Shown here: piece after piece, positions 33,801-59,432 of the stretch
Numbering within the stretch: the stretch's first letter is position 1
How the letters are laid out: every line of letters starts with the position of its first letter
Assembly (NCBI GenBank): GCA_033065855.1
Contig: JAVXUO010001651.1
Span: forward strand, 62,001-126,000
Source of the DNA: Escallonia rubra
Taxonomy: Eukaryota; Streptophyta; Magnoliopsida; Escalloniales; Escalloniaceae
Length of the DNA stretch: 64,000 nucleotides
Direction: 5' to 3'
The notes under the pieces: model-generated
What the model saw: only the letters and a program-made list of their open reading frames with translations
Database searches by the model: none
What the model was told of the DNA's origin: nothing
Position numbers and translations under genes: made by a program

Positions 33801-34954
33801 AGTTTACAACCAAAATTAATATGCGGTGTAACCTTGTTCTAACAGATATGTTGATTTGTTATTGGGAGAATTCAAGCACTACAAAACAAGGCTTGCTCAT
33901 GGGGGTATTAAGAAAGAGGTAGTTGCTGGCACTCTGAATGCGATCAAACATCATCTGCTTAATTATATTACAGCTGATGAGATTAGCCTCCTTATATAGG
34001 GGCATTGCAGTACTTTTCTTACTAAGTTGTACTAGCATGCACTGTACATACCAAAAGTAGTTCTCTTCAGCCACTAACATGCCGTATAAACTCTTTGAAC
34101 TTGAACATTGACAATGTTCTCTCTTCTGCATTGAACTAAGGTAGTTCAAGTACCACAATGGAGGCTTTTGCAGTTTCACAAGGCCACAGTAGCTTATCTT
34201 TTCATTGTGACTAGTATAAACATATGTGATCTTAGTAATCCATGGAAAACTTATGGTAGAACATCTTCAATTTTGTGTACATCAACTCTCCTGAGACCTT
34301 GCAATGGCATGAGTCTTGTCCACTTGGGCCCCTTTTTAATTCTTGAAGCCTAGTGCTATAGTTTTGGTCCGAGCATCAAAGACCATGATGCGAACTTCAT
34401 AATATGTTGAGCCAAAAATGTGTTGTTCCCCTAATATGAATGCTCCATCATTGGGTACGATATATTGGTTATTCAGTCTAAAACAACCGACGAGGATTTG
34501 TCGCTTCAGCTCTACTTGATTGTGTTCAATTTATGTGATATCCATTGGCTTGGTTAAAGTTCTACCTTTTGATAATTTTAGATCAAAATATTGCTGACAA
34601 CATGGTCAAATATAAAGATAAGGTTCGGGAATTTTTGGACAACTCCTAAAATGTTGTGGTGGGGCCTTCTCTGACTTGATTCATATTGGAAGTGTTACAC
34701 ATGACTAGCCTATTCTTTTTTGCCTTACCTACCTCTGCTCTTGTAAACCCAGGTTCAAGACCTTCTCTTAGAATACGGAGTTGAAAATCTAGCTGAAACT
34801 CTTGTTGAAGGGCTATCACGTGTGAAGAAGTGCACTGACGAGGGTCGAGCTCTTATGTCACTAGATCTTCAGGTTTCCTTTGATTTAACAGGATGCTCCA
34901 TATATCTTTTCATGGCTTGTTGAAATCAGTTGTTATTAAGTACACTAAAAATTG

Positions 34955-34991
<37 letters not shown>

Positions 34992-35496
34992 CTCTTTTAG
35001 GTTCTGATCAATGGCCTAAAGCATTTTGTCTCCATGAATGTAAAACCCAAGCTACAAATTGTTGAAACTTTCATCAAGGTATGCATACAGGTCTTTCGTA
35101 TTAGTAGATATTTGTGACTTGAAAAGTTGCAGCCTATCATTTGCTTTTCTTGAATAACGCACTATTACTGTAGAATGCAGCATGGCTTTGCCCATTTATA
35201 TTTTTTGTTGTGGTCTAAATGCAGGCGTATTACCTTCCGGAAACTGAATATATGCACTGGGCGCATGCTCATCCGGTAAGAGAATTGTGCTTTCGAGGCT
35301 AGAACAAATATTCTAACAAACTTCTGATGCTCGGTACAATATCAAGACATGCACAATGAACCCCAGTTTTTTTACCTCGCAGGAATACAGTAAAAGTCAA
35401 ATCATCGGGTTGATCAACCTTGTGGCGACAGTAAAAGGTTGGAAAAGGAAAACCAAGCTGGAAGTGTTAGAAAAAATAGAGTCAGCCAGCATGTAG
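3766..35496 (+). CDS. VPS50: Syndetin (VPS50-like), C-terminal 813 residues, 16 exons
   Basis: Syndetin is the EARP-specific subunit that joins VPS51, VPS52 and VPS53 to tether vesicles for endosomal recycling; this role is known for the family and not tested here. Exons (start..end): 3766..3885, 7054..7085, 7174..7312, 8292..8858, 10377..10921, 10998..11061, 11186..11288, 11481..11656, 18002..18127, 19481..19551, 21282..21344, 33846..33918, 34753..34872, 35001..35078, 35225..35275, 35383..35496. They sum to 2442 bp, which is 813 residues plus TAG. All introns are GT-AG and phases match at every junction. Family-typical stretches include YSDLCHRIPESKFRQCLL (about residues 60-80), TGSSLCLLR before residue 468, DQWVK, NAKWEVKE, LLLGEFKHYKTRL, and a C-terminus with TKLEVLEKIESASM. 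Roughly the last 230 residues match the conserved syndetin C-terminal domain (DUF2451). The plant protein is about 1100 residues, so some 300 N-terminal residues lie off the left edge. The middle (about 98-470) is Ser/Asn-rich and probably disordered. The frame is intact despite heavy transposon load in introns, so the gene is probably functional. Confidence 0.93.
4676..5731. mobile_element. Mutator-like MITE
   Basis: It lies in the 3.2-kb first intron. The left end GGGTAATACCTC followed by ACTCCTTGAGGTTGGGGGTA is matched in inverted orientation by the right end (about 5690-5731). The termini resemble those of the elements at 13400-14390 and 48391-49350. The interior holds a CA run (5149-5185) and a GAA/GAT-rich stretch (5290-5520) in which a gatctgatgctaatggtgatgg unit occurs twice. 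Flanking 9-mers match only 5/9, so exact ends are uncertain. Confidence 0.6.
5732..7053. other. Intron remainder with unidentified coding-like fragments
   Basis: The rest of the first intron. Two + strand stretches read like exons but match nothing I know: about 6595-6707 (ALCLDHIFETNWGAAYASLL and on, ending at a GT) and about 6817-6921 (HIDLITEASEHAPMPSQTYD and on). They are not syndetin, because exon 3766-3885 joins exon 7054 directly in phase. A - strand open frame at 6013-6336 has no recognisable domain. Confidence 0.35.
7054..7085 (+). CDS. VPS50: Syndetin exon 2 of window
   Basis: A 32-bp micro-exon encodes DLETPDKQSN plus two bases of a split codon. The acceptor is ggcag and the donor gtagaa. 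It joins in frame to both neighbours, and the next intron is only 88 bp. Confidence 0.85.
7174..7312 (+). CDS. VPS50: Syndetin exon 3 of window
   Basis: It encodes YRFTYSDLCHRIPESKFRQ and onward to QPELK, one of the most conserved stretches of plant syndetins. The acceptor is ttccag and the donor gtcagt. It ends in phase 0. Confidence 0.93.
7532..7919. mobile_element. hAT-type MITE, copy 1
   Basis: A 388-bp element bounded by inverted CTTAGTTGCA and TGCAACTAAG, with a perfect 8-bp target duplication gctcaatc at 7524-7531 and 7920-7927. It is non-coding. It is the same family, in inverse orientation, as 22583-22964, sharing the GC-rich run beside the caaagcg end and most of the interior. It lies in the intron between exons 7312 and 8292. 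Confidence 0.92.
7928..8291. other. Intron remainder with older MITE-like end
   Basis: At 8060-8088 the sequence again runs from a GC-rich tract into cgtgcaactaag, the MITE terminus. A fragment of an older copy may therefore sit next to the intact one. Otherwise it is intron ending at the exon 8292 acceptor. Confidence 0.4.
8292..8858 (+). CDS. VPS50: Syndetin exon 4 of window
   Basis: This 567-bp exon (189 codons, phase 0 to 0) follows a ttcacag acceptor and ends before gtaagc. The first half is acidic and Ser/Thr-rich, a probable linker. The second half (WFQLRKDATSYVSQTLQRG, then SIHQFLKNYEDLNIFILAGEAF) is the conserved helical part ending in HRQNIY. Confidence 0.92.
8859..10376. other. 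Syndetin intron, 1518 bp
   Basis: AT-rich sequence without a recognised element or open frame of interest, spliced gtaagc to ttacag. Confidence 0.7.
10377..10921 (+). CDS. VPS50: Syndetin exon 5 of window
   Basis: The longest linker exon after exon 4 (545 bp). It starts ALKMVMEKETWLPMPPDTIQ after a ttacag acceptor and ends in phase 2 within an Arg codon (SSLCLLR) before gtgaac. It carries the conserved FAGLVGDGA and SRISKP segments separated by low-complexity Asn/Ser/Glu sequence. Confidence 0.93.
10998..11061 (+). CDS. VPS50: Syndetin exon 6 of window
   Basis: This 64-bp exon completes the split Arg codon and encodes LMDKYARLMLKLEIINVEFF followed by K. The acceptor is aatag and the donor gtatgt. 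It begins the helical C-terminal part. Confidence 0.9.
11186..11288 (+). CDS. VPS50: Syndetin exon 7 of window
   Basis: It encodes GMCQLFGIFFHFLFESF followed by a short polar stretch, ending in phase 1 before gtaagt. The acceptor is gacag. The hydrophobic segment is a conserved helix and not a predicted signal sequence. Confidence 0.9.
11481..11656 (+). CDS. VPS50: Syndetin exon 8 of window
   Basis: The exon completes a Tyr codon and encodes RLKNALSRIMQDCDQWVK, a Ser-rich spacer, and SFGLK before gtatcg. The acceptor is gctcag. The following intron is 6.3 kb and holds a solo LTR. Confidence 0.92.
12568..13336. mobile_element. Probable hAT-like MITE nested in solo LTR
   Basis: The inverted termini are TATGAAGCACGGAT on the left and TATGAAGAACGGAT read from the right end. 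The flanks gtttcaact (12559-12567) and gttttaatt (13337-13345) match 7/9. The span accounts for sequence absent from the sister solo LTR at 56211-59432. The interior includes a GAAGAA-rich stretch (about 12719-12765) and cgtatccgcg-type repeats near the right end. It is non-coding. Confidence 0.6.
13400..14390. mobile_element. Mutator-like MITE nested in solo LTR
   Basis: Long inverted termini of about 70 bp begin GGGCTAATTACACCTATGTC at both ends and include GGACACAAAGTTTCAAAATG. The flanking 9-mers aaaaaacaa and ttaaaacaa match 7/9. The interior holds a GC-rich imperfect repeat of about 20 bp (ccggcagccccttccctccc units, about 13745-13995) and long G runs (14155-14180). The - strand Gly/Arg-rich open frame across the GC-rich part is most likely a repeat artefact. 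Family members lie at 4676-5731 and 48391-49350. Confidence 0.85.
13745..13995. repeat. GC-rich imperfect minisatellite
   Basis: About twelve degenerate copies of a unit close to ccggcagccccttccctccc in tandem, inside the nested Mutator-like element. Confidence 0.75.
15790..16400. repeat. CA-rich low-complexity block
   Basis: Interspersed cacaca runs within the solo LTR. The sister LTR has the same kind of block at about 58500-58740, so it is an original part of the LTR family and not a later expansion. The 75-codon open frame in it is low complexity and not called. Confidence 0.7.
16905..18001. other. Intron remainder with unidentified 85-codon open frame
   Basis: At 16905-17200 there are gtgtccgacac-type motifs as in decayed hAT ends. 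The + strand frame 17340-17597 encodes 85 residues that look protein-like (NCRNDPSLLSQLLRRQGLEF, then EHDLAFYFAGEHSVIGLSAF) with no low complexity. I do not recognise the family. It is not part of syndetin, since exons 11656 and 18002 join in phase. It could be a captured gene fragment. Confidence 0.4.
18002..18127 (+). CDS. VPS50: Syndetin exon 9 of window
   Basis: 42 codons, phase 0 to 0: ERCAGADTITLVARLLHRSK and onward to EEFYVHL. The acceptor is ctgcag and the donor gtacgt. It lies in the conserved C-terminal domain. Confidence 0.93.
18128..19480. other. Syndetin intron, 1353 bp
   Basis: AT-rich intron, gtacgt to atcag. No element was recognised. Confidence 0.7.
19481..19551 (+). CDS. 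VPS50: Syndetin exon 10 of window
   Basis: It encodes VDSVPDLVEHIHRTTSRVLL then HID and the first two bases of a Gly codon. The acceptor is atcag and the donor gtgaga. Confidence 0.92.
19552..20391. other. Left part of the 1730-bp syndetin intron
   Basis: From the gtgaga donor at 19552 to the tandem duplication at 20392. It is AT-rich, with no recognised element or significant coding frame. After the duplication, 21218-21281 runs into the agcag acceptor of exon 21282. Confidence 0.6.
20392..21217. repeat. Tandem duplication of about 400-430 bp in intron
   Basis: Copy 1 is 20392-20788 and copy 2 is 20789-21217, both starting gtatacatagcaaa and ending near gatgacgg. They share long near-identical blocks such as gtgaaactatgaagaggagc and tggaaaatcatagacgtt. 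Copy 2 carries an extra segment (about 20877-20920). It ends 64 bp before exon 21282. Confidence 0.88.
21282..21344 (+). CDS. VPS50: Syndetin exon 11 of window
   Basis: It encodes YADRIANAKWEVKEIGVDHN after completing the split Gly codon, and ends in phase 2 before gtatgt. The next intron is 12,501 bp, the largest in the window. Confidence 0.92.
21345..22044. other. Start of 12.5-kb syndetin intron
   Basis: AT-rich intron. Near 21900-21990, cctaggaagcaccgg and ggatacgcggatacg resemble hAT termini and sub-terminal repeats, a likely decayed copy. Short (TA)n runs precede the next element. Confidence 0.4.
22583..22964. mobile_element. hAT-type MITE, copy 2, nested in hAT transposase
   Basis: A 382-bp element with ends CTTAGTTGCA and TGCAACTAAG and a perfect 8-bp duplication ctttggag at 22575-22582 and 22965-22972. 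It is the inverse-orientation sister of 7532-7919. It interrupts the transposase C-terminus between TPK and YAEGE, so it landed after the hAT arrived. Confidence 0.93.
24265..24522 (-). repeat. 129-bp in-frame duplication inside hAT transposase
   Basis: Units 24265-24393 and 24394-24522 both encode WLAP.RAMWSEKGISIVSDG and onward, 43 codons each, differing by a few residues. The IVSDGWS motif is thereby doubled. Confidence 0.9.
27162..28426. other. Intron segment with simple repeats and possible TIR element
   Basis: TG and TA runs at 27170-27222. A duplicated gatcaaataactg unit lies at 27212 and about 27301, each followed by a ccatc...gacg-like segment and ttagatctgttt. TA/CA-rich runs occur at 27640-27765. 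From 27768, gggctaatatcaaacctgtt resembles Mutator-like termini seen elsewhere, and GC-rich coding-like sequence follows (27950-28200), but I found no convincing right end. Confidence 0.35.
28427..28900. repeat. TG-rich minisatellite block
   Basis: Irregular tandem units such as tgtgtaactgtgtgcg and gtgtgggtgtgcgtgtagtt, with an internal poly-T/poly-G run near 28484-28508. Cys/Val-rich or Thr/His-rich open frames here are repeat artefacts. Confidence 0.75.
28912..29750. mobile_element. Internal-deletion derivative of the 22233-26067 hAT
   Basis: 839 bp with ends CTAGGTAGCACGGACA and the inverse CTAGGTAGCACGGACA, and a perfect 8-bp duplication catattag at 28904-28911 and 29751-29758. The left about 190 bp match 22233-22470 of the full element. 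The right about 530 bp match its 25590-26067 region, including gacctctggcgacagc. It lacks transposase and would depend on an autonomous relative. Confidence 0.93.
29759..31449. other. Intron segment with further hAT-like relics
   Basis: A 23-C run lies at 29902-29924. At 30560-30720, gcacctggtgc and gcacccg motifs recur, and at 30745-30845 ggacacctct and gaggtgtcc form inverted pairs like hAT ends. A + strand stretch near 31080-31230 reads DLSLDEPEMEAEVCTEEVND then an acidic tail in one frame, which is unidentified. No syndetin exon is present. Confidence 0.4.
31458..32022. mobile_element. hAT-type MITE, second family
   Basis: 565 bp with inverted termini TAGGGGTGCAACTTGGG and a perfect 8-bp duplication cacgtagt at 31450-31457 and 32023-32030. 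The interior carries inverted gcccgt/acgggc and gggctgg motifs on both sides. It is non-coding. Confidence 0.93.
32031..33845. other. End of 12.5-kb intron with TRIM-like relics
   Basis: At 33046-33070, gccttaacaaggacgctaag is the inverse of a segment in the TRIM interior (about 1850-1873), with 19/24 identity over the region. Similar text occurs at 32710-32730. This suggests decayed TRIM relatives, but no LTR pair could be drawn. The 3' end is the aacag acceptor of exon 33846. Confidence 0.4.
33846..33918 (+). CDS. VPS50: Syndetin exon 12 of window
   Basis: It encodes YVDLLLGEFKHYKTRLAHGG then IKKE, an almost invariant family stretch. The acceptor is aacag and the donor gtagtt. It restores phase 0 after the 12.5-kb intron. 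Confidence 0.93.
33919..34752. other. Syndetin intron, 834 bp
   Basis: Between exons 12 and 13 of the window, gtagtt to cccag. No element or coding sequence was recognised. Confidence 0.7.
34753..34872 (+). CDS. VPS50: Syndetin exon 13 of window
   Basis: 40 codons: VQDLLLEYGVENLAETLVEG, then LSRVKKCTDEGRALMSLDLQ. The acceptor is cccag and the donor gtttcc. Confidence 0.94.
34958..35000 (+). promoter_or_regulatory. CT microsatellite forming the splice acceptor tract
   Basis: An uninterrupted run of ct dinucleotides followed by gttctcttttag directly precedes exon 35001, so the polypyrimidine tract of this acceptor is a microsatellite that may vary in length. Confidence 0.75.
35001..35078 (+). 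CDS. VPS50: Syndetin exon 14 of window
   Basis: 26 codons: VLINGLKHFVSMNVKPKLQI then VETFIK. Its acceptor is preceded by a long CT dinucleotide run (from about 34960) that serves as the polypyrimidine tract. Confidence 0.94.
35225..35275 (+). CDS. VPS50: Syndetin exon 15 of window
   Basis: 17 codons encode AYYLPETEYMHWAHAHP between a tgcag acceptor and a gtaaga donor. Confidence 0.94.
35383..35496 (+). CDS. VPS50: Syndetin terminal exon
   Basis: It encodes EYSKSQIIGLINLVATVKGW, a basic KRKTK segment, then LEVLEKIESASM and TAG. The acceptor is cgcag. Confidence 0.94.
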   Translation, partial: EYSKSQIIGLINLVATVKGWKRKTKLEVLEKIESASM

Positions 35497-35839: not shown

Positions 35840-36149
35840 ATGCTTAAGCGAGGAAAGGAGCAGTTCCAATGGTTCTTTTTATCATTAGCCATCTGGAAAA
35901 ATTTGATGAAAAACAAATCCTAACCAAAACCGCGGGAATGGGGTTGCACTGGCCGGTATGCAAGAGGAAATAAGGGGTTTCAATGGTTTTTTTTATTTTT
36001 GATAACATCGGGAATTGCATAGATAAAGAGCTCAGTGATGAGCATATTACAGGAAAGATGAGAATCATGACATGTTATGATTTAGCAAAGTTTAAACCAT
36101 CCAAAAGGAAAATATCAAAGCATACAGAAAGAACCCCTCATCGTGCCGA

Positions 36150-36640
36150 TTTTTCAATATACATTACAAAAATTGGTGGGTTCAAGGGCAGGCATCACGT
36201 GGTAGCAAAATAGTATCAATCCAGTCTTGATAATTCTAGCTTGACACGCAAAAGAAGCGAGGACCTTAGCCTCCTTAAGTTGTGATTTGCTGGCCCAGAA
36301 CATACTATAATAATGGAAATCAGAGATCATATAGCAAAAGTCATAAAACGTGGCTGCCACCGAGTCCATAATGTATTCAGTATCCGAAATCTGAGAGTAA
36401 AAAGGAAGAGGGCAGTATATACATTAATGTGAAGAAGTTCTTTTGTTAGGGCCCATTGTGATATAGTTAATAGGCCTTTCATAATAGCTGAATAACAGTC
36501 CGATGCTAAAGAAGGGAATGCAGTAGAACCACATCTCTTATGAATTGATGTTGTACAGGTAATGCCAACGCCAGTTCTAAGGTTAGACTTGTTGTATGAA
36601 ATGGCTAGGAAGATATTTACAGAGTTTCGAAGGTTATAAG
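36150..36640 (-). pseudogene. LINE RNase H domain (3' half of the inverted LINE)
   Basis: An RVT_3 type RNase H-like fragment beginning about NLRTGVGITCTTS and running to KEAKVLASFACQARI, with one frameshift near 36340. Its partner in the neighbouring LINE (40618-41004) has the same order, including HINV and KEARSLALFACHARL. Confidence 0.75.
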
Positions 36641-36734
36641 AACAAAGAGGGATTTGGGGTTGTATGACGAGAGGGTACTGTGTATTATCATTTAGATACT
36701 TGGTTGTAGATTTGGTATTTCGGAGAGAGGTATT

Positions 36735-39700
36735 GTAGTTGATTATCCTTTGTCCCATAAGGATAATATGTCTGATCGTATTTTCTGGCTTATCGTTAGA
36801 GTTTCGGAAGATTTGTTGGTTCTGGTTCAACTATGGACAACCCAACCTTTCTAAAAGACAAGCAACATGGCTCAGGCTATCTGGAGCCATTGAGCACATT
36901 TCTTTACCTCTAATGTTGCTCGGTGACTTCAATCAAGTTCTCTCACCATCAGATAAATGTGGTTATAATAATCTCTGCATCCAGAGCCACAAATTTTTGG
37001 CGAACTTCCTGGAAACGCATCACCTCACAGATTTAAAATGGGTGGGACCCCATTTACTTGGACAAATAACCGCGCTAAGAATGCTTGTACCTATGAGCGA
37101 CTTGATCGTGGTTTTGCCAACCCTGACTGGATTATGAGATTTCCAAATGCCCAAATCCGTAACCTAGGAATTCAAACTTCGGATCATGCCCCCATTCTTC
37201 TTATCATCAGACTTGATCAACATTTTTTACCTCGGCCAAAGCGCTTTGAATCTATGTGGCTTAAACACCCTCAAGAGTAACAAATCATAAGGATTGCCTG
37301 GTCCACTTTCGTCCCTGGCTCTCCTTTGTTTAAAGTAATGGCCTGAGGAAAAATCATGATGGAAATTATGAGGTTATGGAAGAAAGAGCGCTTTGGAAAT
37401 CTTGACGCTCAAATTCAACAGACCCAAGCACAAATTACACATTTTCAGTCAAGATGCACAGTTATTAGATCAGAATGCTAGAAGACAACTCTCTTGGCTA
37501 CTTGAATGCGAAGAAATACATTGGGCTCAGAAATCCAAGATTAAATGGCTTCAGTACAGAGATAGAAACACGAAGTTTTTTCACGCTTCTACTCTAATTT
37601 GAAAGCAATCCAATTTCATATCTTCTTTACAAAACGCCTCGGGTCAGCTTTTAGAATCTCATGGCGATATTTCTCACTGTTTGGTCGAGCACTTTAAAGC
37701 TATCCTTAACCCGGGCATCATGGCAGAGCATCAGTCCCTGATATCACAGAGTGTGGCCTCTATCACCAAAAGACTCCTTCCCCGCTAATCTGAGTGGATT
37801 GATCGACCTTTTACTGTCTTGATGGTATTCCTGCAGTGGTCTATCAGCAATGTTGTCACTTTTTGGAATGACAAATCACTGCGGCAGCTCTGTCCTTCTT
37901 TCGATCGGGACATATGCTTACAGAGGTCAATAACTCCTTTATTGTGCTCATCCCTAAAGTACCCTCACCGTCAAATGCAGATGACTTCAGACCTATTTCC
38001 CTTTAAAACACCATATATAAAGTGATTGCTAAAACTCTAGCTAACAGGATCAAACCAGTCCTCAACCTACTCATTTATGAAGATTAGAATGCCTTTGTCC
38101 ATGGATGTCACATAACTGATAATCTCTTTATTGCCCAAGAACTCACAAACAAGATTCGTAAGCATAGTACATGCAATCTTCACCTTGGGGTAATCAAAAT
38201 GGATATGAGTAAAGCGTATGACCGTGTTAACTGGGCTTTCCTGATAGCACTGCTCACAAGAATGAATTTCCCGAGGCATTTGATCAGTCTCATTATGACT
38301 TGTGTAACATCGGTCTCTTATCAAATTTTAGTGAACGGATCGCCTTCATCAGTTTTCAAACCTTCTTGTGGGTTACGACAGGGAGATCCGATATCCCCAT
38401 ATCTCATCATACTCTGTGCAGAAGCTCTATCTGCAGCTTTGGACTTAGCAAAGACACAAGGAGTAATTAAGTTATAAAACCTGGACCTCGCAGCCCTCCA
38501 ATCAACCATTTATTTTTTGCTGATGACACCTTGACCTTTTCAGAGCTAAATTACATGTCTTGCAAAGCTATCAAAAAGCTTTTAGACATTTATTGCGGAG
38601 CCTCAGGTCAAATGATCAACCATAAAAAATCAGCCATCACCTTAAGTCCATCATCCACCCTTGTACTCTATCAGCAGGTCTCCAAATACTTAGGCTTCAA
38701 AATTTTGGACTCCTTTGGAAAATATCTGGGTGCTACGCTGGATACACACCGGAAATAATTTTTTCTTTAGCTTCTTAAAAGGCTACGGAAAAAATGCGTT
38801 GGATGGAAAAGTATCCTTCTTAAAAAAGCTGGACGTGCAACTCTCATTCAATCGACCCTCTCGGCTCTTCTTATATACCACATGCAGGTATATCTTTTCC
38901 CTAAATACGTTTGTAAACAGATAAACTCTGTTATTTCCAACTTATGGTGCTCATGGGACGATTACCGAAAAGGTATGCATTGGATCAATTGGCACTCCAT
39001 TTGTGCTCCAAAAGCAATGGGTGGTCTTGGTTTTAAGGACACACATCTCTTCAACTTGGCATTATTAGCCAAATCAAGTTGGAAAATTCTGACGGATCCG
39101 GATTGCCTTTTTTCCAGAGTTCTGACTGGCAAGTATTGTGTCCGCTAAGTTTTTGAAGTCTGCCCTGTCATTGGTAACTTCTCTTAGGGTTGGAGGAGTA
39201 TCCTTGCGGGCCGCCAAGTCTTAAATCGTGGACTCTGATGGCAAGTAGGTACATGGTCTAAAATATCTATTTGGTCTGATGATTGGATTCCGGGTTTGGG
39301 CGAGAAACTGGATCACCTATTGGGTATTCAAAATCTTCGGCCTAATCATCCTACTTTGGTGAAAGATCTTATTACCCAAAATTCATGGAATACTCCTTTG
39401 GTTCGGGAACTCTTCCTGCCTAACATAGCTAACCAAATTCTCGCTATTTACCTTTCCAAACATCCTTTGGCTGACCAAAAATTATGGAAATCTACTCGGT
39501 CAGGCAACTTCTATGTTCTCTCTGCCTATAACCTTTTATACTTCAACTGCCAGAATGAACGAGTGGCACGAGGCCAAAGTACATGTGTGAATGTTATTGA
39601 AACTCCAATTTGGTACACCTTATGGTCCCTTCCTATCCCTCAAAAAATTACCTTTCTCCTCTGACAAATTCTTTGGAACCGACTACCAACCCGAGAAAAA

Positions 39701-39934
39701 CTTCATAAACTCAGAACTATTGATTCACCGTACTGCCCCATGTGTAACTTACAGGAGGAATCTATTGATCACTTGTTCTTTCATTGTCCTTAAGTTCGGC
39801 CTGTTTCGTTTGGCGGCCATCTAGGCGTTAAAACTGACCAGTTTCAGTCCTCTTTCAGAGTCTGGCTTATTGCTTGGCTCACCAACATTTCTCCCGCCAA
39901 CAAACATCTTTACTACAATACATTCATTTCTTCT
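36735..39934 (+). pseudogene. LINE ORF2 (endonuclease, reverse transcriptase, zinc domain)
   Basis: The decayed ORF2 of the inverted half. Order: the C-terminal half of the apurinic-type endonuclease (LLGDFNQVLSPSDK at 36910, FTWTNNRAKNACTYERLDRG at 37050, then TSDHAPILL); reverse transcriptase (IKMDMSKAYDRVNWAFL at 38195, GLRQGDPISPYL at 38370, FADDT at 38515); and the zf-RVT region (WSLPIPQKITFLL, with CPMCNLQEESIDHLFFHCP at about 39735-39790). Motif A aspartate and the ADD pair are present, but many stops and frameshifts break the frame. Confidence 0.85.
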
Positions 39935-40617
39935 GGGGTTTCAATGGTTATAGCTCAGATCCATATTCAACTTCTTGTCATGGTCTAAGAGATTAGACAA
40001 GTTTTATCAGTGTAAGTTCAAACAACACCATTTGAAAAGTGGAGTGGGAATTTGTGTCATGAATACTTTGGGAGTACAGAAGGACTAAGTAGCTATTTCT
40101 TATGATCCAACGGGCCCTTTTCTGTCAGAAGCAACACTAATAGTTTTGAAGGCTTTGAATCGGGTGAAGCATGAAGATTTTTGCATATCATAATATACAC
40201 CAATTCAAAACGCCTGCATAATCATATTATAGGGTTGTTGAACTTATACAATGTTTGTTATGATTGTACTGTTTTCACTCGTGCAAGATGATTTTCGAAC
40301 ACTCATGCAAGATGATTATCAAGCAAGAGACTATTGTTTGAAGCAAGTTAACTAATTACTTTTGCATGCAAAGTAAGGTCACGAGTATCTATGGAATTGA
40401 CCACTCTTGAATTAGTTGCTTGTAGACTCGAACTTTGTTGATGTTAATAGTTTTTAGCTTTAAATATTAAGTTTATGTACAAGACCGGCCTTAGGGCCAT
40501 ACAACAAATAGGAAACGTCTAGAAACAGTATGTAAATATAACTAGAGATTAGAACATGGAGACGTAAACCCAAACTATACTAGGAAAAAACACTTACCAA
40601 CATAGACTGTCCAAAAC

Positions 40618-41004
40618 CTAGTCTTGGTAAACCGATAACCGAGCATGGCAAGCAAAAAGTGCTAATGAACGTGCTTCCTTCAAAAGGTGTGGGTCGGCCC
40701 TGTTCATACAGTAGTAGTGGAATTTATTCAGCAGGTGACAGAGATCATATATAATAGGTGCCACCGTATCCACAATATCCTCGGATCCCAACATCTGAGA
40801 TAGAAGGAAATAAGAATCTGTTAGCACATTTATATGAAAGAAATTGTGTTTTAGAGCCCACGTTGAAGCAAATAATAAGTAATGTGATAAGGCAGAAAAG
40901 ATGTCACATGATGAGGTAGAAAAAGAGGCCGAGGCACATCGTGTTGCGAGATGATAGCACGAGACCCCGATCCCTGCACGAAGCCGGATGGAATCAAAAA
41001 ACAT
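40618..41004 (-). pseudogene. LINE RNase H-like domain
   Basis: A 128-codon open frame with RAGIGVSCYHLATRCASASF, WALKHNFFHINVLTDSYFLL and LLKEARSLALFACHARL. This is the RVT_3 type RNase H found at the end of many plant LINE ORF2 proteins, and the best-preserved of the three copies in this region. Confidence 0.8.
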
Positions 41005-41582
41005 ATATATCTACATGGTAATCGTCTTGGGTTTTATGCAGTGACAAGGAGATGTATGGATCACCGAAGCCTCTGGGTTAAGAGAGTAGACCCGATGGAG
41101 AGGCGAAGGTGAGCAATTTGTTTGTGGTAACTGTCTTGGAGAACTAGGTAGTTTCTTGGAGAAATGAGAGATATACTAGTTAAGTGGTTTATTTGGTCTA
41201 TTGCGAACGTAGGGTTAAAAGGTATTTGGTTAAAGACGGCGTTGTTCCTGTGGGTCCAAATAGTCCAAAGGGAAGTGGAAAAATAAACTACTGCAAGCCT
41301 GGATCTTCCGGGTCCGTAGCCGGGATTAATCCAAGCAATAAGCTATTCTCGGAAAGAAGTCCCAATATTTGTCGTTTGTATGTCAAGAGGTACCCCAAAC
41401 CAAATCGGTCTAATTTTTGGGCACAAGAGGAAAGCATGGCTTGCATCTTCCGGTTGTAAGTGGTACAACAGGCATAATTATGAGTTGACTACCTTGAGCC
41501 GGTGAAGATTCTTGTAAAGGGGTAATCTTTCCCACAACATTTGCTAGACTAAGAAATTAAATATGAAGGGTAGGGACAACCT

Positions 41583-44190
41583 TTAGACTTTACTCCAGGA
41601 TAATTCAGGATTTGGTCTAGAGGGGGGGTTAGGTAAATTCCATAGAAGCTGAGACGAGTGTTCATATAGTAACTTATATGCCGAGGCTACCGAGAAAATT
41701 CCATCCTTTGTGTGCCCCCAAACCTGTTGGTCGTCGTAATCATTCTGAGCAATATAAATAGCAGTGATCCACTTGCCTATATCTCGAGGAAAGATTATGT
41801 CAATCTTACTTTGATCCCAAGATCCATTGCAGATCAGGTCACAGACTAGGACATCAGACAGATTATCGCCTGTCAAGGGAAGAGCATTTAGTGGAGAGGT
41901 ATTCGGGATCTAGCTATCCTGCCATGTTTTAATGTCTTCCATTTTCGACCTGCCATCTAAGACCCAAACTTACCGTCTGTCTACCAATTAGAATTCCTCG
42001 CCAAACGCCAGATGACGGGGATTGAAGAAAAGTCTAGTAGACACAGTATTTCCCACAGTACACTCGAGCCATGAGGGAGTCCGGTTCACACCAAATTCTC
42101 CAGGCAACTTTAGCAAGTAGTGCCTGATTTAGAAGTTGTGATTTTTGAAAGGCAAGGCCCCCTGACGACAGAGGACCACATAAAACATGCCAATTTGCCC
42201 AGTGTATGCCCCGAGATCCCTATTTACCTGACCATAAAAAATTGCTAAGAATAGTATCAATTTTTCGACAAATTTTTTTGGAAATAGCCACACATGCATG
42301 TGATAAATAAGAAGATAATTAAGCACATATTTAATTAGGGTAGCCCTTCCTGCTTTGTTGAGTAATGCTCCTTTCTAGGCCGCGCATCTTGATTTTATCC
42401 AGTTCAAGAGTTCCTAAAAGAAAGCTGTCCATTTTGATAGATCCCAAACCCCCTTTTTTCCTTCCGAGTCATTCTAATTTTATTGGTCAATTCCTGAGCA
42501 ATAAGGATATTGTCTATGATATGGCGCTGAGCTACAAAAGCATTCTGATACGGGAATACTAGGTCACTGAGCACACCTTTAATTCGGTTGGCAAGCATCT
42601 TGGAGATAATCTTATAGATGATATTGCAGAAACTAATTGGTCTAAAATTACTCGGTCTAATTGGGTGTGTACATTTAGGGATAAGCACAATAAATGCTTT
42701 ATTGGCAACACTTAACATGTGACCGGAGCGAAGGAACAATAATACAGCCGCTGTAATGGGTCTTGTCATAAAATCCCAGCATTTTTGGTAAACAACTGCA
42801 GGGATACCATCCGGTCCAGGTGCTTTAAGGGGCTTAATTTGAAAGGGCCAGTTTAACTTCCTTGGCGGTGAAAGGTTTTGATAAAGAATATCGTTGGCTA
42901 TCAGAGAGGTGTTGCGTTATGTTCTCCATCGAATTATAGCTATCCCTCGTCACTGGCTCCATTGTTGAGGAGCAAAAGATATTTTTGAAGTAATTAACCA
43001 AACAAAGAACAATATCAGGGTAAAAGGTATGAGTGATATTGTTCTCATCAGTATTGGAGGTGATACGATTAAGATTACTTTGAACAACTGTCAAAGTGTG
43101 GAAAATTTTATTATTCCGATCCCTCAGCTTTAACCAGTGAATTTTAGCTTTCTAAGCCCAGAAGACCTCCTCACACTCCATAAGCCAATCTAAATGGCGG
43201 CGGGCCTGTTGGTCCAAGAGTTGCGCCTCCAAGTTAGGCAGCAGGCCTTGGCATTTATTTATCTGATCTAGAGTATCCTTTATCTGAGAGCCGAGATGGC
43301 CAAAATAAGATTTATTCCAAACAGCTAACTCCTTCATCATAAGTGTCCCCTAAAAGCTGACCCGGAATAGCGGGGATCCATTAACAGTGGTTTGCCAGGC
43401 TTTATAACCTTGCCCAAAGGGTGCTTCAGCCATATTGCTTCAAATCGTTTTGGCTTCATATTCTGAAATAATACTGGGTGGGTATCAAGGAGTAAAGGGG
43501 CGTGGTCAGATGTTTGGATTCCTAGGTTAGTAATGGTGGCCAAAGGAAACAAAAGTGTCCAGGCGGTATTTACAAAGCCCCAATCAATACGCCCGTAAGT
43601 ACAAGCCAAACTATGGCGGTTATTCGTCCATGTGAACGTGGGGCCTACCCCTTTGATATCAATCAGCTGATGTTTTTGTATAAAATCCTCTAGGATGGTA
43701 GCACCAGGTGTATGTAAATGATGAGAGCCAGATTTATCTGCCGACCTAAAGACTTTGTTAAAATCACCCATAAGAACGATAGGGGAATCTGGGGAGGATA
43801 TCGAAACATATATGCAGGCCCAAGTTTGTTGTCGTTTAGCTTAGACATAATGACCATAAATGAACCCTAACACCCAGGTTTCCCTTCCGCCCAAGGTAAA
43901 GCGAACCAGGATGCAGTTCTTATCCCGGTGAAGCGATGTCCCCTGGATATCATTCCTCCACTCTACCCAAAGGCCACCTTTTGTTCCCAGAATACCCATC
44001 GGATCAACACCCACAGCAGAAATGAAACCTTGTTTCAAGAAAAAGGAAGAGATTCTATCTACAGATAGTTTTGTTTCCTGTAAGAATATACACGATGGTT
44101 GATGGAGCCGGATCATCTTTAATACTGCATGAACTGATAGGGCATGACCGAGCTCACGACAGTTCCAGGTCAGAACTTTCATTGAGTCTC
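41583..44190 (-). pseudogene. LINE ORF2, endonuclease plus RT with internal deletion
   Basis: It starts at the Met near 44181 (MKVLTWNCRELGHALSVHAV), the endonuclease N-terminus. The catalytic-type QETKLSVD, MGDFNKVF (43771), FTWTNNRHSLACTYGRIDWG and TSDHAPLLL segments follow. The RT fingers are present (AFIVLIPKCTHPIRPSNFRP, YQNAFVAQRHIIDN). At about 42420 the sequence runs from IKMD straight into a connection-like segment with SFLLGTLELDKIKMRGLE, so the palm including the ADD motif is absent. The zinc region (41876-41583) is broken by stops. Confidence 0.82.
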
Positions 44191-44869
44191 GGGGGGTTGT
44201 TCTGGTACAACGCCCAAAACCTGATAAACTAGACCCCCCGAGCAAAAGGGGGGCTCCGTAACTACTAGTCTTCGCTTTCGAGAGGGAGACAAGATCTCTG
44301 GTATATCTAGAGACCCTATTTTATTCTTTTCTTTGTACCAAATCATGTCATAGTTAGGGAGGCATCGACGATCCACCAACTGGCGGTGTCGTTTAAGCTT
44401 GGGGTTGCTATCCCAAGAAGAAAATATTTCCAGTTCCAAGACCCCATTCACAAAGGGAGGAGGTGGTCCCAGCCACCACTTCGGCCATCTCGACTGTTTT
44501 CGGGTGAGAGAGAAACGGGGATCTTGCATTGAGGCATTAGCAGCCCCCACCGGTAATTTATTTCGTGAAGAGTGTTTGTTTTTATAAGCATGCAAGTTCC
44601 GTATGACATGTAGAGGAAGAATATTTACAGCATGATGTTGGAAAATTGAATTGACATAGGAGAAAAGTTGAGGACTGTGACCTGGGGACGAAGATTCTGA
44701 GCCAGATCCCCTAGATTTTTTCCCACGAGCGTCGTCTTCATTAATATGATCATCCATGAGGCCACATTTCCCTGTATATATAGTATTTATCGAGACAACA
44801 AAGTCTTCAGAGATCATCTGGAGACCATTGTTCATGTTTGAAACTTGATCAGTAGATAGCACCGTCTCC

Positions 44870-47122
44870 ATGTTAGAGTCATACTCAAGGAGCTGAGAAA
44901 CGAGTGCCTCTTAGTTGTGTCTGCTCCTCCTCCACATTTGATTTCTCCTTAATTGCTATGTTCATATTTTCCAGTAAGTGCACGGAACTAACAGAAGGTA
45001 GAAGATTATTTTCCAGAGGTGTATAAACTTGTAGACTGAGATCAGTTCTAAGTTGTTCCAATGTAGAGTGTATAGAATCATCCAAACCCATAGGCAAGCC
45101 TCGCGGCCAAGTAGAAAACTGAGGCATATATCATCGACCCCCCCCCCTCCCTCAGATTTAGCATATTAGCCTTTTCCTTCCCATGATCGCAGTCATTCAC
45201 CAACATAGCCTTAGATGAATCATGTTCATATTCTAGTTTGTTGATAATTATGGGACCCTGTAAGATGTCTAGGGGATTTTCCGACAAGGATGAACCATCT
45301 ACATTCATCGGTGCTAAAACCATACTCAAATCAATGCTAGACAGGACGATAGTGGATGTCTGTGGGAAAGGATGGGTCTTTGGGCCTAAGAAAATTTGCA
45401 GCCCATACGCAAAGAGATTTGTAAATAATTTTTAAAGATGCTGATTGAAAAAAAGGGGCGATGGGCCCGGCCCAAGAGCATTGGCTGTGATTACAGAAGT
45501 ACTAAGTGGGCCGCCCACATCCGGAGATATGAGGTCCAAACCCGCATCAGAGGTAGAGGGGTCCAAGTCACATGATATTTTGGGTTGAGAGATAAGGGAA
45601 AGGGATTCTGGGGATCACTCCCCTATTTGGCAATCCTTAGGGGTCAGAGCTAGTGGGGCGGTGGGTGTTGACGTGGCATCCATCCGAGGGTTGCTTGCAC
45701 CAAGTGGCATATGGGGTAATGAATGAAAATCATGTAAGGTTATTGTAGGATCTCTGGCAGATATTATGGTCGGCGCATGAGCACACATATTTTTGGAGTT
45801 TGTCCCCAGCACTTCTTCCGGTAGGATCTCGACATCAGAGTCAGAAAATTTCGGTGAGTTTTCCATATCAGAAAAATCATTGACACTAAATTCTTCTTGC
45901 TCTTCTTGATCCTCCTTGTTTACTTGAGCATCAGATAGGTTTGCCACCAGTGCATCAAACTTCTCAAGTTCCTCACCATCAGGTATTTCTAGTAATTTTT
46001 GGAGGAAAATGGTCAATATCAATGTCCTTATCTTGTTCTTGGTCAGGCACCGGATTTTCTTCCATGTGTGCATTACCATTTATTTCCTCATTTTCATCAA
46101 CAAACCCATACGGCTCCTCTCCAGGGAGCTGGTAATCCACCTCTACATCAGCGTCCTCATTGGCATTTTTCGAGGCAAAGGATTGGGAGGCCGTAACAAA
46201 AGCCATTTCGTCACTTGACCCATTAGAGAGGGCCGGGGAGAAAACGTCGTAGAGATGAGTGAGATGTGTGCCCTCATGATCCATAGAGATTGAGATTCGC
46301 GAGGAACAGTTCCCATCCGAGTTTGGTAGAGCACGAAGGGGATGGGCAAACATTTGTTGTCCTGCCAGAAAATATGTTGGGTATAGATTTGGACCCGGGA
46401 GAGCAGCAGTGCGACGTGACAACAGTTCCACCACCTCCGTGAGAGGGACATGGCAGTTTGAATTATCATGACCAATCTGGCCACATCGATGGCATGCAAT
46501 AAAAAACCTTTCGTAATTGCATCTCATCATCACCCACCCCACACCATCTAGTAAGGTAATGTACACGGCTGGCAGAAGAGGTAGATCAACCATTACGCGA
46601 ACCTTGATGTGGAAATAATCTGTGTTAGTCACACGCTTTTCCGACCAGTCAATATCCAAGACCGTATCCGTCGCAACACCGATCATCTTAGCAAGTGAGT
46701 AGATATAGCAGTCACTTGGGATGTTGTTAACTTGCATCCTTAAATCATTCGTGGGGAATTTTAGAGCCGAGTAGATAACATGTGGGAAACAAGGTTGTAG
46801 AAGGAGTAAAGTTCCAAATAAATTCCATGGTCCATTGTTACACACTAGTAACGCATCCGAAGTTGTGGAAAAAGGTGAAGAGGAAGACATGTGGTAGTTT
46901 TTGGGCATGAACAAATCCTTGCAGGAACTAGCAGTGGTTCACCCTATTCTGGATTTTTTTCTCAGAGAAGTTATGGGAGTCAATAAACTTGCCAATCAAG
47001 ACTTTGTCCTTATCAATCCGCATATTTTGGACATGGGTGGGGTTTATGGGAAGCATGACCGTACGTAGATCTAAATTCTCCGCATCAATAAGGTTTCCAT
47101 CATAATGGAAAGGGTCAGCCAT
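44870..47122 (-). pseudogene. LINE ORF1 (gag-like, DUF4283 and zinc knuckle)
   Basis: It encodes the nucleic-acid-binding protein of the LINE. Start codon at 47122 (MADPFHYDGNLIDAENLDLR). A frameshift near 46925 leads to the long frame 46914-45979 with the domain core (NNGPWNLFGTLLLLQPC, DLRMQVNNIPSDCY) and a CCHC knuckle, CHRCGQIGHDNSNC. An acidic Asp/Glu-rich tail follows (46079-45615), then broken frames to about 44870. The - strand frame 44871-44179 (230 codons, with WLGPPPPFVNGVLELEIFSS) runs on toward ORF2 and may be the ORF1 C-terminus. Confidence 0.8.
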
Positions 47123-47560
47123 GTTCCACCAAACAGGAATAAATACCCAGAGGTTAGTGGTCCACGCAGTACAAGTGAAGTAAAGAGCATGATGGATAAG
47201 GACAGTTGTAGGAGAGAATCCAGACAGAAAGTATAAAGGTATCCGTGAATGCAGGTGGAAAGGTGACTATGCTACTGGAAAATGGACTATGTTTACATCA
47301 GCGGTACAAGGACGGGGAAGGGAGTATTTCAGTAGAAAACAACCATAGGAAACATGAGGATAGATTCTGATAATAGTTCAGATAATGGAAACATGGGTGA
47401 CGCACAATAAGGACATGCAAGAAGATAGATTACATGAACCCATTCCAAGGTGGGAGATAAGTCAGTGTAGAGTAAAGGATACGAAGCCAGAGAGAATTTG
47501 ACACTGTAGCGCTACTCTCGAGACAGTTTACGTTGTTTAATCGCTAAATCGGCCCTTTGG

Positions 47561-48390
47561 AGGTGAACCTGTGACTTCAACTGAAAGCCCCAACTATAGA
47601 TGGAATTTCAGTCGGGACGACTTTGACAACTCTTTATTATCGCTTTTAATATTTACTTTAAAAAAATCCGCTTATAATACAGTGGTACTGTACAATGGTA
47701 AAAATATATTTAGTTGACACCAAATCTGTCATTTTCCACTTGAGACGACTCTATACGGCACAAAAGACGAGCTTTGTCTGAAGCAATGTTTTAAAGGGTA
47801 GGATGAAACGTCTGATCGTCCACAAGGCAAGGAATTGAAGCGTAAGCCTTTCCATTATTAATTCCTTTTTGTTTAGAGAATATTACGTCATAAAACAAGT
47901 AGAAACAAGAGTGCGCCACCCTATTCATAATAATTAGCTCAGACCAAGAAATTCGAATATGTATACCATTACATAAATTAAACGTGTGTGCGACTCTTAA
48001 AGTATAAGATAAATATATAATTGTTACGGCATATTTTTTCAGATTTCGACTCGCCGGATTATCATCATGACTCACTTAAATTTGATCATCTTCCTCTCAA
48101 CCTCTGACTCATTGTCTCATCTACTCACCAGAGCCATTACAACCGTCCAATACAACCCCCACCACTATCCAACACATGAACAAAGGTGCTGCAGGTAAAA
48201 AAATTAGGGTTCATTTTGGTTCGTCACCGTTGCGTCGATGGCGGTGGGGGCAAATTTGATTAAAAAGGAAAGAGGGAAAAATAGTTGATCGAGGTGCGGC
48301 TTCCTTATGACATAGCATGGCGACTTGGCATATCATGTTTTATAATCAAATTTTTTTGGTTAAATGGTGTGAACATCAAATTAAAAAAAA
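47561..48390. other. Intergenic, unassigned
   Basis: AT-rich sequence between the LINE and the next element. A - strand frame 47791-48075 has no recognised domain. Confidence 0.4.
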
Positions 48391-49350
48391 ATTTAATTAC
48401 ACCAAGTCCTTGGGGTTAGAATAAAATTACAGCCGATGACACAAAGTTTGAAAAGGTAACAGATCTTAACCATTAACTTTGAAAAGATATCAGCCATATC
48501 CATCCATCGTTGATTTGTTAAAATGTCAATACAACCCTTATTTAGTACATACATAGTATATACACAAAATAATTTCAAACTGTAATTATTTGAGGATTTG
48601 GATTTACATGTGTGTAATTTAACTGATTTGGATTTAGAGTTTGCGTAGATTAAGGGAATCACGTTGCTTTAGGTGGGGTTTGAGTAGCAACTTTTAGTTG
48701 ATGAGGCGGCAAAGGGACAGGAGTGGAGACGGCGACAGTTGTGTGATTGGGCAATTTGGTGTTGACGACAATGCCGATGAAATCGAGGTGGCCTTGTAGC
48801 TCATCGTAGTGGCGGTGGAAGCTGGAGACTGCAGTTGAGAGGTTGAAGAGCTGCGCGACGAAATAGGTAAAAGGTGGTGATGGTTGTTGATTGGTTGAGA
48901 CTGGGTCTTTCAATTGTTGTTTGACGATGGCTAGAAGTGGCTTAACTAGCAGGGCTGTTGTGTAGAGGTGGCGGTGGGAGCGGACATGTTGTGTGGGCTT
49001 GCACGCTGTTCAGAGGAGGCGGTAGTGGTGGTGATGATGTACTAGATTTGCTAGTGATCATGTACTTGTAGACACTAGTGTCTGCGTGGGGGTGGTTGGT
49101 GGTGGGTAATGTCAAGAGAAAATAGGAAAATAGAGGAGGATAAAGGTGCCGTCACTGTGTCGATAGTGCTTAAACAGTGGGTCCTTGAAGAGGAAGAGGA
49201 GAAAAAATGGATGGCTTTTGAAGAATTACCTTACAAATGATGGGCAGTAAAATTAGTTTGCTAAAACCGTTCGATATAAATGCTATATGTCCAACTAATG
49301 GACATACATATAGTGTCATCCTAACCTCTGAAAAATAAGTGTATTTAACC
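48391..49350. mobile_element. Mutator-like element with possible captured coding sequence
   Basis: The left end tttaattacacc, followed by ggggttag, gacacaaagttt and atcagcc, parallels the element at 13400-14390, as does the total length (960 vs 991 bp). The right end read inversely (ggttaaatacactta, gaggttagg) is a diverged partner. The interior differs completely from that relative. Confidence 0.6.
48659..48913 (-). pseudogene. Coding-like cargo, possibly FRIGIDA-like fragment
   Basis: An 84-codon frame inside the Mutator-like element with FVAQLFNLSTAVSSFHRHYD then ELQGHLDFIGI, followed by a Pro/Thr/Val-rich tail. The helical part with DELQ.HLDFI reminds me of the coiled region of FRIGIDA-like proteins, but the match is short and from memory. 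A captured fragment is a reasonable inference; function is not expected. Confidence 0.3.
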
Positions 49351-56210: not shown

Positions 56211-59200
56211 TGTAACATCCCCGGAAATCCGTAGCTCCGCCTCCCCGAACTCCCGGGTCGTTAGCCTATCGGATCACATCAAACCTGTCAAATCTGTTCA
56301 CTAACACATACTACAAAATATCAAATCCGACACCATCTTAAATTCTTCAAATACAAGCTTACAAGACTGCATAAGCTCAAACTGTTAAAATCTAAGTTCT
56401 TTACAAACTCGAGTCCTTATGAATGAATCGACAGTACCGACCCGCACAGGGGCCACATTACCTAGTAGTGATGGGCTCACCGGAACCTCACGCAGACTCT
56501 AACCCATTCCCGAACCTGTTACATCTTATCACCACCTGCAGAAGGGAGCCAAACGGAGGGTGAGCTTTTAAAAGCTCAGTAAGGTCGTACAAAAGGACCA
56601 ACGAAAGAATTACAAACGATTCCAAGAATCCAACTGACAAAGATTTCCAGAACACTTCAAACGGTCAAAGACTCAATGATTTCCAAAAAGAATCAAAATT
56701 CATCAAAAATAACTAGCAAAATAGACAAATACCATCACGATGGGTTCCAAAATGATCAACAAAAGATTATTTCCATAGTCATCATTTCAAAATACAATGC
56801 TGGTTTTCCAAAAGATTTCAAAACGCGTACGGATCATCTGAAATAGTTCTTTCCAAAATACAATGATGACTTGTCAAGGGATTTCAACCCAAGTACAAAT
56901 CATGATACATATGACGCGAATAAAATCAAAAATCAACGTTGACCATGGGCAAAGTTAGTAGTGTACACATGCATGATGTACCAAAATATTAGTCCACTTG
57001 GGTACTAGCCTGCTTTTCCTTTAGGATTCAAACCAGCCTTATTACGTCCTCCCACAAAACAGAAACCCAGGTCAACAGAAGAATCAGCAATATCAGTGAG
57101 CGTTAACATATGCTCAAATCTCCGAAATCAATTCGGATTCCAATAACAATAATCATAATGACATAAGTCCGCATTCAGAATTTTCAGCAGAAAAATCACA
57201 AATAAACAACAAAACGATTGCGAATAATTATCGAATTTAAGCAAAACAATTCAGAAGAACGGATACAAACAATTGTCAAATTTTCTCAACATGCAATAAC
57301 AGGCGAGCATCACAGGATTTCCAAATAATCGATTCAGGTTCAATATTGGGGTTTTCTGGGCAATAATATGCTGATATGAATACACAATTCAGAGTTCGAC
57401 ATTAGTCATAAATATATCAAAGGAGTACTTATGAGTGCGAGTTATCAAAACGAGGGTTCGGACGGAAGTCCTTATCCAGGGTTCAGATAGAATCCCTTAC
57501 TTGGATCTGCAACTAAACTATCTAACCGGAAGTCTTTCACGTTAACCTAAACGGAATAATCGAACCATTAGAACACAGACTATAGTAAAATATTATAACT
57601 TAATACAGACTCACGCATACTCCCAAAATGAACCTCCCCTCACCGGGTATGTAAAATTATTGAAACGCCCCTAGCGTGTAAAATTACCAAAATGCCCCTC
57701 GGACTTAAATTACCAAAATGGTCTTCCCATAAGTAGAATCACTGAAATAATCTTCCCATATGTAAATTTATGCAAAAATACCTTTCTTAGGTCAAATTAC
57801 CAAAATACCTCTTCGGGGTGGCAAATTACCAAAATGCCCCTGGGGTTTCCGGCACCTGAAAAATCTCAAAAATATCTTAAAACACTATGTTAAGCATCCT
57901 GATATCATTTCTGGTCTAAAAAGCATTTTAAATAATTTTCGTCCGAAAATTCTGAACCGGTGTCCGGATCGAGTGCTAAAAGGCCTGTTTCACGAAAAAT
58001 ACTTATCGGCTTCAGAATGGTACAAAATTTTAGAATCTGATACCTATCAGTGAAATAAGATTTTACTAAAAATTTTAGATTAAAATAACTTGGTTTACTA
58101 GGTTAAATAATTCGCTAATTCTGTTAAATTGATGCCCTCATTTAGCGCTCTTCACGGATACCAAAAATTCCCGAAAAAATTCATAGCGTAGTTCTAATAA
58201 AAATATTTGGGGTTACAGTTTTGGACTTGCCTAATTTTAGCCCTAACTATTTATGAAAATTCGTTGAAAAACTGCCTAACAAATTTTACCTTTAGCGACG
58301 ATTACGCTTCCTATTCATATTAAGCACACACTAACTCACGTTTTTTGCACCTACTTCTCTTCTTCCTCCAGCTGCCATGACTCATCTACTTGCCTAACCC
58401 CCCAAGAATCAGACACCAACTCACAAAACCATTGCTAACCCACCAAAATACTCACATATGTTTACTTTCATCAAAAGAACCCATCCTAACACAATTTGGA
58501 CACACAATTATTTCCCCCACCACCTTACCCGTAATACTACACACACAAGAACACCCACAGTTTCACACACACACAAACTCACCCCTTACCCCTCGGAATT
58601 TCCTTAAAACTTCACAATTTCATTCACTAACTTCATAAACCCACACAACAACCTAAGATATTACACCTATATACACAACTATATGTGTGTATATATACAC
58701 ACCCTCGGTACACACTCACAGTTATACGCACACACACTAAGCACCCGAAACACTCACTATAAATACATACGAAGGTAGAAGAATCACCTTGCAAACTTTT
58801 TCCCAAATCTCTCTACTTTCCTCTTTCTTTCCTTTTCTTCTCCCTGTTTTCTTTCTCTTCTCTGTTTCTTCTTCTTCTTCTCTGTTTCTTGTTTCTGTCT
58901 TGATTCTTCTTTCTTTCCCGAAAGGGAAAGATTTCCCTTTTTGTTTTTTTTCTTCTTCTTTATCTTCCACCGAGACCTCCATTACCCACATATCCCATAT
59001 TTAAATATTTAACTAGCTTAGTCATTGTAACAAGGAGGAGGTGGCAACATTTTAAGGTATGGTTTCCCCAAATTGCAAATTAGCCCCCAGAATTTCCACA
59101 ATTACAAAATGACCCCAAACTTTTGAATGATTTACATCAAAGCCCCAAATCTTATTCCAACCTCCGTTAATCTAATTGAATGTCCCGAAAACATATATTT

Positions 59201-59432
59201 TCACTCGATTCATTATTTTTCATCACAAAAAACATTAACTACATTTATACCCCCAAAGTTTTCCAAAATTACATAAATGCCCTCAAAATTTCAAAAATTA
59301 AATTTTTGCCTCAAAATTATTTTAAGCTTCGATACTCTACTAGTACTCGAACCTTGTTCAGAATTATTGCCCGTTTATTTTTTTGGAGCCCGGATGATTA
59401 TTTAACCGGCTTTCGAAGTTCGGGGTATTACA
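56211..59432. mobile_element. Solo LTR (family A), copy 2, nested in copia LTR
   Basis: 3222 bp from TGTAACATCCCCGGAAATCC to TTCGGGGTATTACA, flanked by tcagt (56206-56210) and ttagt (59433-59437), a 4/5 match. It is homologous throughout to 11883-16899. It is the uninterrupted copy, so it defines the family length. No internal genes. Confidence 0.82.

Follow-up and report, generated by a model that had tools for sequence, protein, structure and literature searches.

A plant LINE copy in Escallonia rubra with its 5' part inverted, probably by twin priming

LINE sequence in two pieces of opposite orientation lies between the copies of a 15-bp direct repeat in the window, which is the whole 64,000-nucleotide stretch of Escallonia rubra DNA that we analysed. 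The block between the repeats is one real unit. It is very probably a single insertion of a plant L1-type LINE, the 5' part of which was inverted by twin priming. The initial annotation had proposed this reading, and our analysis supports it: the two halves lie at matching distances from a common relative, are near-adjacent in element coordinates and do not overlap extensively. A 5' inversion is a known kind of structure. Here it occurs in a plant LINE and is best explained by twin priming, and we make no claim that earlier reports are absent.

Target-site duplication and the two halves

A repeat search found the exact 15-bp sequence GGGGTTTCAATGGTT at 35974-35988 and at 39935-39949, the left and right target-site duplications. 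The duplicate flanking the unit had been annotated before, one base off these coordinates. Only one other match to GGGGTTTCAATGGTT with up to 2 mismatches was found on the two strands of the window (54944, - strand, 1 mismatch). Between a zone of 40 bp at the edge of the T-run and one of 60 bp at the end of the + strand half, 1.8e-6 exact 15-bp matches are expected by chance; these zones were chosen after the repeat was found, so the value is a guide only. The longest match among 4000 zone pairs simulated with an order-1 model was 12 bp. A T-run at 35987-36000, directly after the left repeat, is the A tail read on the - strand, and its part outside the duplication is 35989-36000. The + strand half has no A tail at 39934, where it borders on the right duplication. 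Two features of twin priming are thus present at the edges: one exact 15-bp duplication encloses both fragments at their outer ends, and the A tail is on the non-inverted 3' part and absent from the inverted one.

The relative used for all distance tests is a second, longer, decayed LINE on the - strand at 40450-47266, both ends being approximate. By tblastx and Pfam it contains ORF1, endonuclease, part of the reverse transcriptase (RT), zinc region and RNase H. Its ORF1 has DUF4283 and zinc knuckle matches, both just under the Pfam cut-offs, and its upstream part has an Exo_endo_phos match (E=8.3e-05) that is also just below the cut-off. Its RT core lacks about 550 nt. No target-site duplication was found for this element when 40380-40560 was compared with 46900-48500, where the longest exact match was 9 bp. 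In tblastx, the + half of the insertion matched 43864-41328 of the relative and the - half matched 40941-40636, so that the - half shares the orientation of the relative and the + half has the reverse one. The A tail marks the - half as the 3' part, which makes the + half the inverted 5' one. The DNA alignments of both end regions to the relative scored better than all 200 shuffles (128 versus 48 and 83 versus 47).

The non-inverted 3' part (36001-36741, - strand) was delimited with tblastx, DNA and protein alignments and an edge test. It comprises the 3' UTR, RNase H at about 36600-36224 and an upstream linker, and its right edge at 36741 is a probable position within bounds of 36600-36819. 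The RNase H aligned to that of the relative better than any of 60 shuffles, with 63 of 124 codons identical; its Pfam match to RVT_3 was below the cut-off (E=0.1). Disruptions occur in this half at a rate of 7.3 per 100 codons. With this alignment and the T-run, the annotated placement of RNase H and the A tail on the - strand was confirmed.

The inverted 5' part (36742-39934, + strand) was established with tblastx, Pfam and alignments, and its left edge at 36742 is likewise a probable one. It is truncated at the 5' end within the endonuclease domain and holds the end of that domain, the RT, the thumb and the zinc region. Homology to endonuclease, RT and zinc region spans about 36819-36826 to 39901 on the + strand, and the half ends before the linker from the zinc region to RNase H. 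Pfam identified the RT (RVT_1, E=1.2e-14) and the zinc region (zf-RVT, E=6.8e-17). For the endonuclease, Pfam found no match in the corresponding frames of this half itself, and the domain was called by homology to the relative. These results agree with the initial description of endonuclease, RT and zinc regions on the + strand that stop before RNase H. Parts of this half show 2.6 to 7.7 disruptions per 100 codons against the relative. Compared with an intact ORF2 on a contig from another collection (L002), it carries 15 stops and 32 frameshifts in 887 aligned codons. With RVT_1 and zf-RVT found by Pfam, and endonuclease and RNase H found by alignment to the relative, the copy has the features of RNase H-bearing plant L1-type LINEs, a group with zf-RVT and RVT_3 domains.

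L002 was the one match in a single scan of a genome contigs collection, and two scans of a viral contigs collection gave one weak match (L001); both are too distant for resolving the joints of the insertion. Positions 1-5567 of L002 contain an intact LINE-type ORF2 of 1111 aa without RNase H, preceded by a 563-aa frame. The contig is filed under a Paraburkholderia symbiont genome and is probably host DNA inside a bacterial assembly.

Common origin of the halves and the break between them

Alignment scores were compared with those of 60 to 1000 shuffles per test. The shuffles kept two-base units in most tests, and single-base shuffles were used for the DNA alignments of the end regions, for the overhang and for the comparison of the flank's linker with that of the relative. 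The DNA identity of the + half to the relative was 172/245 in the endonuclease, 220/332 in the RT, 254/401 in the thumb and 164/250 in the zinc region, and that of the - half was 226/339 in RNase H. The + half is therefore 63 to 70% and the - half 67% identical, an equal distance as measured against a single relative at about 66% identity. An origin of the halves from different LINE families would have contradicted the initial annotation, and the matching distances to a common relative show no such difference. Two fragments on opposite strands at the same distance from one relative are a further feature of twin priming. We infer that both halves were copied from a single RNA; equal distance also fits two RNAs of one family. 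The rates of frameshifts and stops do not show a common age of the two halves.

At the break, the + half aligned to position 41316 of the relative at 39901. The LWTIW motif expected next after the + half starts at 41270 of the relative. Extrapolated onto the relative, the + half reaches to about 41271. The - half aligned to 41001 at 36600, and extrapolation to 36741 gives 41142; a weak alignment puts its start at about 41171-41180. Its extrapolated beginning is at about 41142-41171. The length missing at the break is about 100 to 130 nt by extrapolation, about 50 to 280 nt within the bounds of significant homology and about 10 nt if the nonsignificant end of a free alignment is taken at face value, all measured across a linker that is not significantly alignable between the - half and the relative (23 of 60 shuffles as good).

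Significant homology places the internal joint within 36600-36819, an interval that takes in position 36730, near which microhomology had been predicted. Free protein alignments conflict at this joint, with the + half reaching to 36696 and the - half to 36812 (41261 of the relative). For short pieces beside the joint on either strand, 23, 28, 54 and 25 of 60 shuffles were as good. Extension of the + half upstream of 36826 added 4 points (15 to 61 of 200 shuffles as good), and extension of the - half upstream of 36549 gave no gain (200 of 200). Past 39877, extension of the + half was not significant (97 to 133 of 200). The initial annotation had expected halves that are adjacent or overlap by a few bases. 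They are near-adjacent and in the right order, as twin priming with a small deletion would leave them, and the expectation held to this extent; with an estimated 100 to 130 nt lost, the join is not a perfect one. Extensive overlap, which would have spoken against the reading, was not seen in the alignments to the relative.

Sequence around the insertion

The unit had also been described as inserted into an older LINE fragment whose two halves read on across the gap. On the right, protein alignment identified an older, more diverged LINE RNase H fragment on the + strand at 40017-40392, in the target region and outside the insertion (score 114, with none of 60 shuffles above 85). Pfam found nothing in a 66-aa piece of this fragment. 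Its disruption rate is 8.2 per 100 codons, and such rates do not separate the copies. A tandem pair of 24-bp units, 83% identical, lies within the fragment at 40276-40323.

A left half of the older LINE reading on across the unit was not supported. On the same strand, 59 of 60 shuffles were as good as the left flank when it was aligned to the relative's zinc-to-RNase H region, and 38 of 60 when it was aligned to the whole relative. Against the zinc region of the + half, 23 of 60 shuffles were as good, and 45 of 60 with a longer flank. The alignment to a composite of the - half exceeded the shuffles (63 versus a maximum of 58; 0 of 60) in the wrong register, and on the opposite strand 13 of 60 shuffles were as good. 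The left flank frame had no Pfam match, and joining the left flank to the right flank added nothing (60 of 60). Even the - half and the relative can hardly be aligned in the linker, so a short left piece of the older LINE could nevertheless lie in this flank.

Farther to the left, 34753-35496 contains exons, with limits set by eye, of a gene in which Pfam identified a Syndetin_C domain (E=5e-40). This gene ends near 35.5 kb, about 480 bp before the insertion, and LINE sequence comes next. The types of gene and LINE present suggest that the window is plant nuclear DNA. The 25 bp that end in the left duplication (35964-35988) are 80% identical to 35850-35874 in the left flank (score 30; 0 of 500 shuffles as good, for a similarity noticed before testing), and a T-run follows both stretches. 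This similarity could be what is left of an earlier insertion into a similar site. Elsewhere in the window, a 1-kb pair at 14760-15731 and 57257-58275 is 73% identical, and further blocks match in the same order (11891-12481 with 56220-56825 and 16720-16897 with 59252-59430). The pair and its accompanying blocks are another repeated element or a duplicated region.

Proposed mechanism and comparison with known elements

In twin priming, described by Ostertag and Kazazian in 2001 (cited in PMC4245944 and PMC2912911), both ends of the cut target prime on one RNA. For the Escallonia copy, the element's endonuclease would have cut the + strand behind ...CAATGGTT. Priming on the A tail of the RNA, the resulting + strand end would have started reverse transcription through the 3' UTR and RNase H. 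A second nick would have been made in the opposite strand, at a distance of 15 nt. The free 3' end of that strand (...GAAACCCC) may then have annealed to this RNA at a position just upstream of the RNase H linker, to be extended back through the zinc region and the RT into the endonuclease domain. The two cDNAs would have been joined near 36741, with about 100 to 130 nt between the copied stretches lost at joining, and filling in of the staggered cut would have produced the 15-bp duplication. The first nick would be at GGTT/AT, which has only TT/A in common with the preference TTTT/AA reported for the L1 endonuclease (PMC2912911).

An ordinary 5'-truncated LINE could instead have been inserted and its 5' part inverted later by recombination or break repair, which would give the same orientations and one family for both halves. 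However, one breakpoint would have to coincide with the duplication edge or lie no more than about 33 bp from it (39901 versus 39935), and a loss of about 100 to 130 nt would be needed in addition, whereas twin priming yields both in one step; we consider a later inversion unlikely. Alternatively, by dual priming or a template jump, the halves could have been copied at a single target site from separate RNAs of one family. Dual priming has been proposed for some primate L1 insertions (PMC2837659), and the equal distance to the relative cannot separate one RNA from two of one family. A near-adjacent break without extensive overlap is, however, what a single RNA would leave and two RNAs would not, which makes this origin quite unlikely.

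The + half and the RNase H at 40017-40392 might also belong to one ordinary LINE, with the - strand RNase H a separate insertion and the 15-bp repeat due to chance. Here RNase H follows the zinc region on the same strand, in the expected order and within about 90 bp, and free alignments of the + half cross the repeat, to 39947 in one case and to 39971 (+4 points) in another. The DNA identities and the extension test nevertheless led us to reject a continuous + strand LINE through the repeat. The + half is 63 to 70% identical to the relative at the DNA level, but the flank RNase H scored 26 against it, with a shuffle maximum of 40, and 24 against the - half, with a maximum of 33. Only 37 of 122 codons of the flank RNase H are identical, versus 63 of 124 for the - half. 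The flank RNase H is more distantly related and so does not continue the + half. The + half continued across the repeat gained no more than shuffles did (91 of 200 as good), and the chance of the 15-bp repeat is about 2e-6. Such a chance arrangement is the least credible of the readings.

Within twin priming, the second priming could have been guided by homology. If the target lay within an older + strand LINE copy, the overhang would be complementary in sense to LINE RNA and might have paired with the incoming related RNA near the matching position. If true, this would explain why the + half ends where the flank's same-strand RNase H follows. No support was found for it: for the 15-bp overhang against the relative near the break, 235 of 1000 shuffles were as good, with a relative only about 66% identical, and for the flank's linker against that of the relative, 484 of 500 were. 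We regard homology-guided priming as very unlikely.

The described product of twin priming is a target-site duplication around two opposite L1 fragments with an internal deletion (PMC2837659). The length of this duplication peaks near 15 bp for L1 5' inversions, and when three LINEs were assayed in human and chicken cells, all 5' inversions but one came from human L1 acting in human cells (PMC4245944). Of 2068 human- and chimpanzee-specific L1 insertions with duplications of 5 to 30 bp, 639 were inverted, and microhomology at the 5' junction was absent in 28 of 605 inverted ones (PMC2912911). For the Escallonia copy, the comparison of the 15-bp overhang with the relative near the break stayed within the range of shuffles (235 of 1000 as good). 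A passage on the plant non-LTR element Sadhu mentions 5' truncation and not inversion (PMC2848041), and PMC13174262 deals with mammals. Among the matches listed in openly licensed PMC articles, as judged by titles and the starts of abstracts, there was no report of twin priming or LINE inversion in plants. The Escallonia case suggests that priming from the second end is also open to plant L1-type elements, and the copy offers a template for genome-wide counts of inverted LINE copies.

The insertion resembles 5'-inverted L1 copies of human and chimpanzee in that a single duplication of about 15 bp encloses two oppositely oriented pieces of the same LINE, the A tail sits on the non-inverted part and sequence is lost at the break. 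It differs from them in being a plant-type LINE with RNase H, whose relative has a DUF4283-type ORF1, and in being old and decayed, with joints that are not at base resolution. In plant L1-type LINEs with an RNase H domain, which the intact LINE on L002 lacks at its end, the order is endonuclease, RT, zinc region, RNase H. The relative shows this order, and the copy does so piecewise. Unlike such elements, the copy is split into two opposite pieces.
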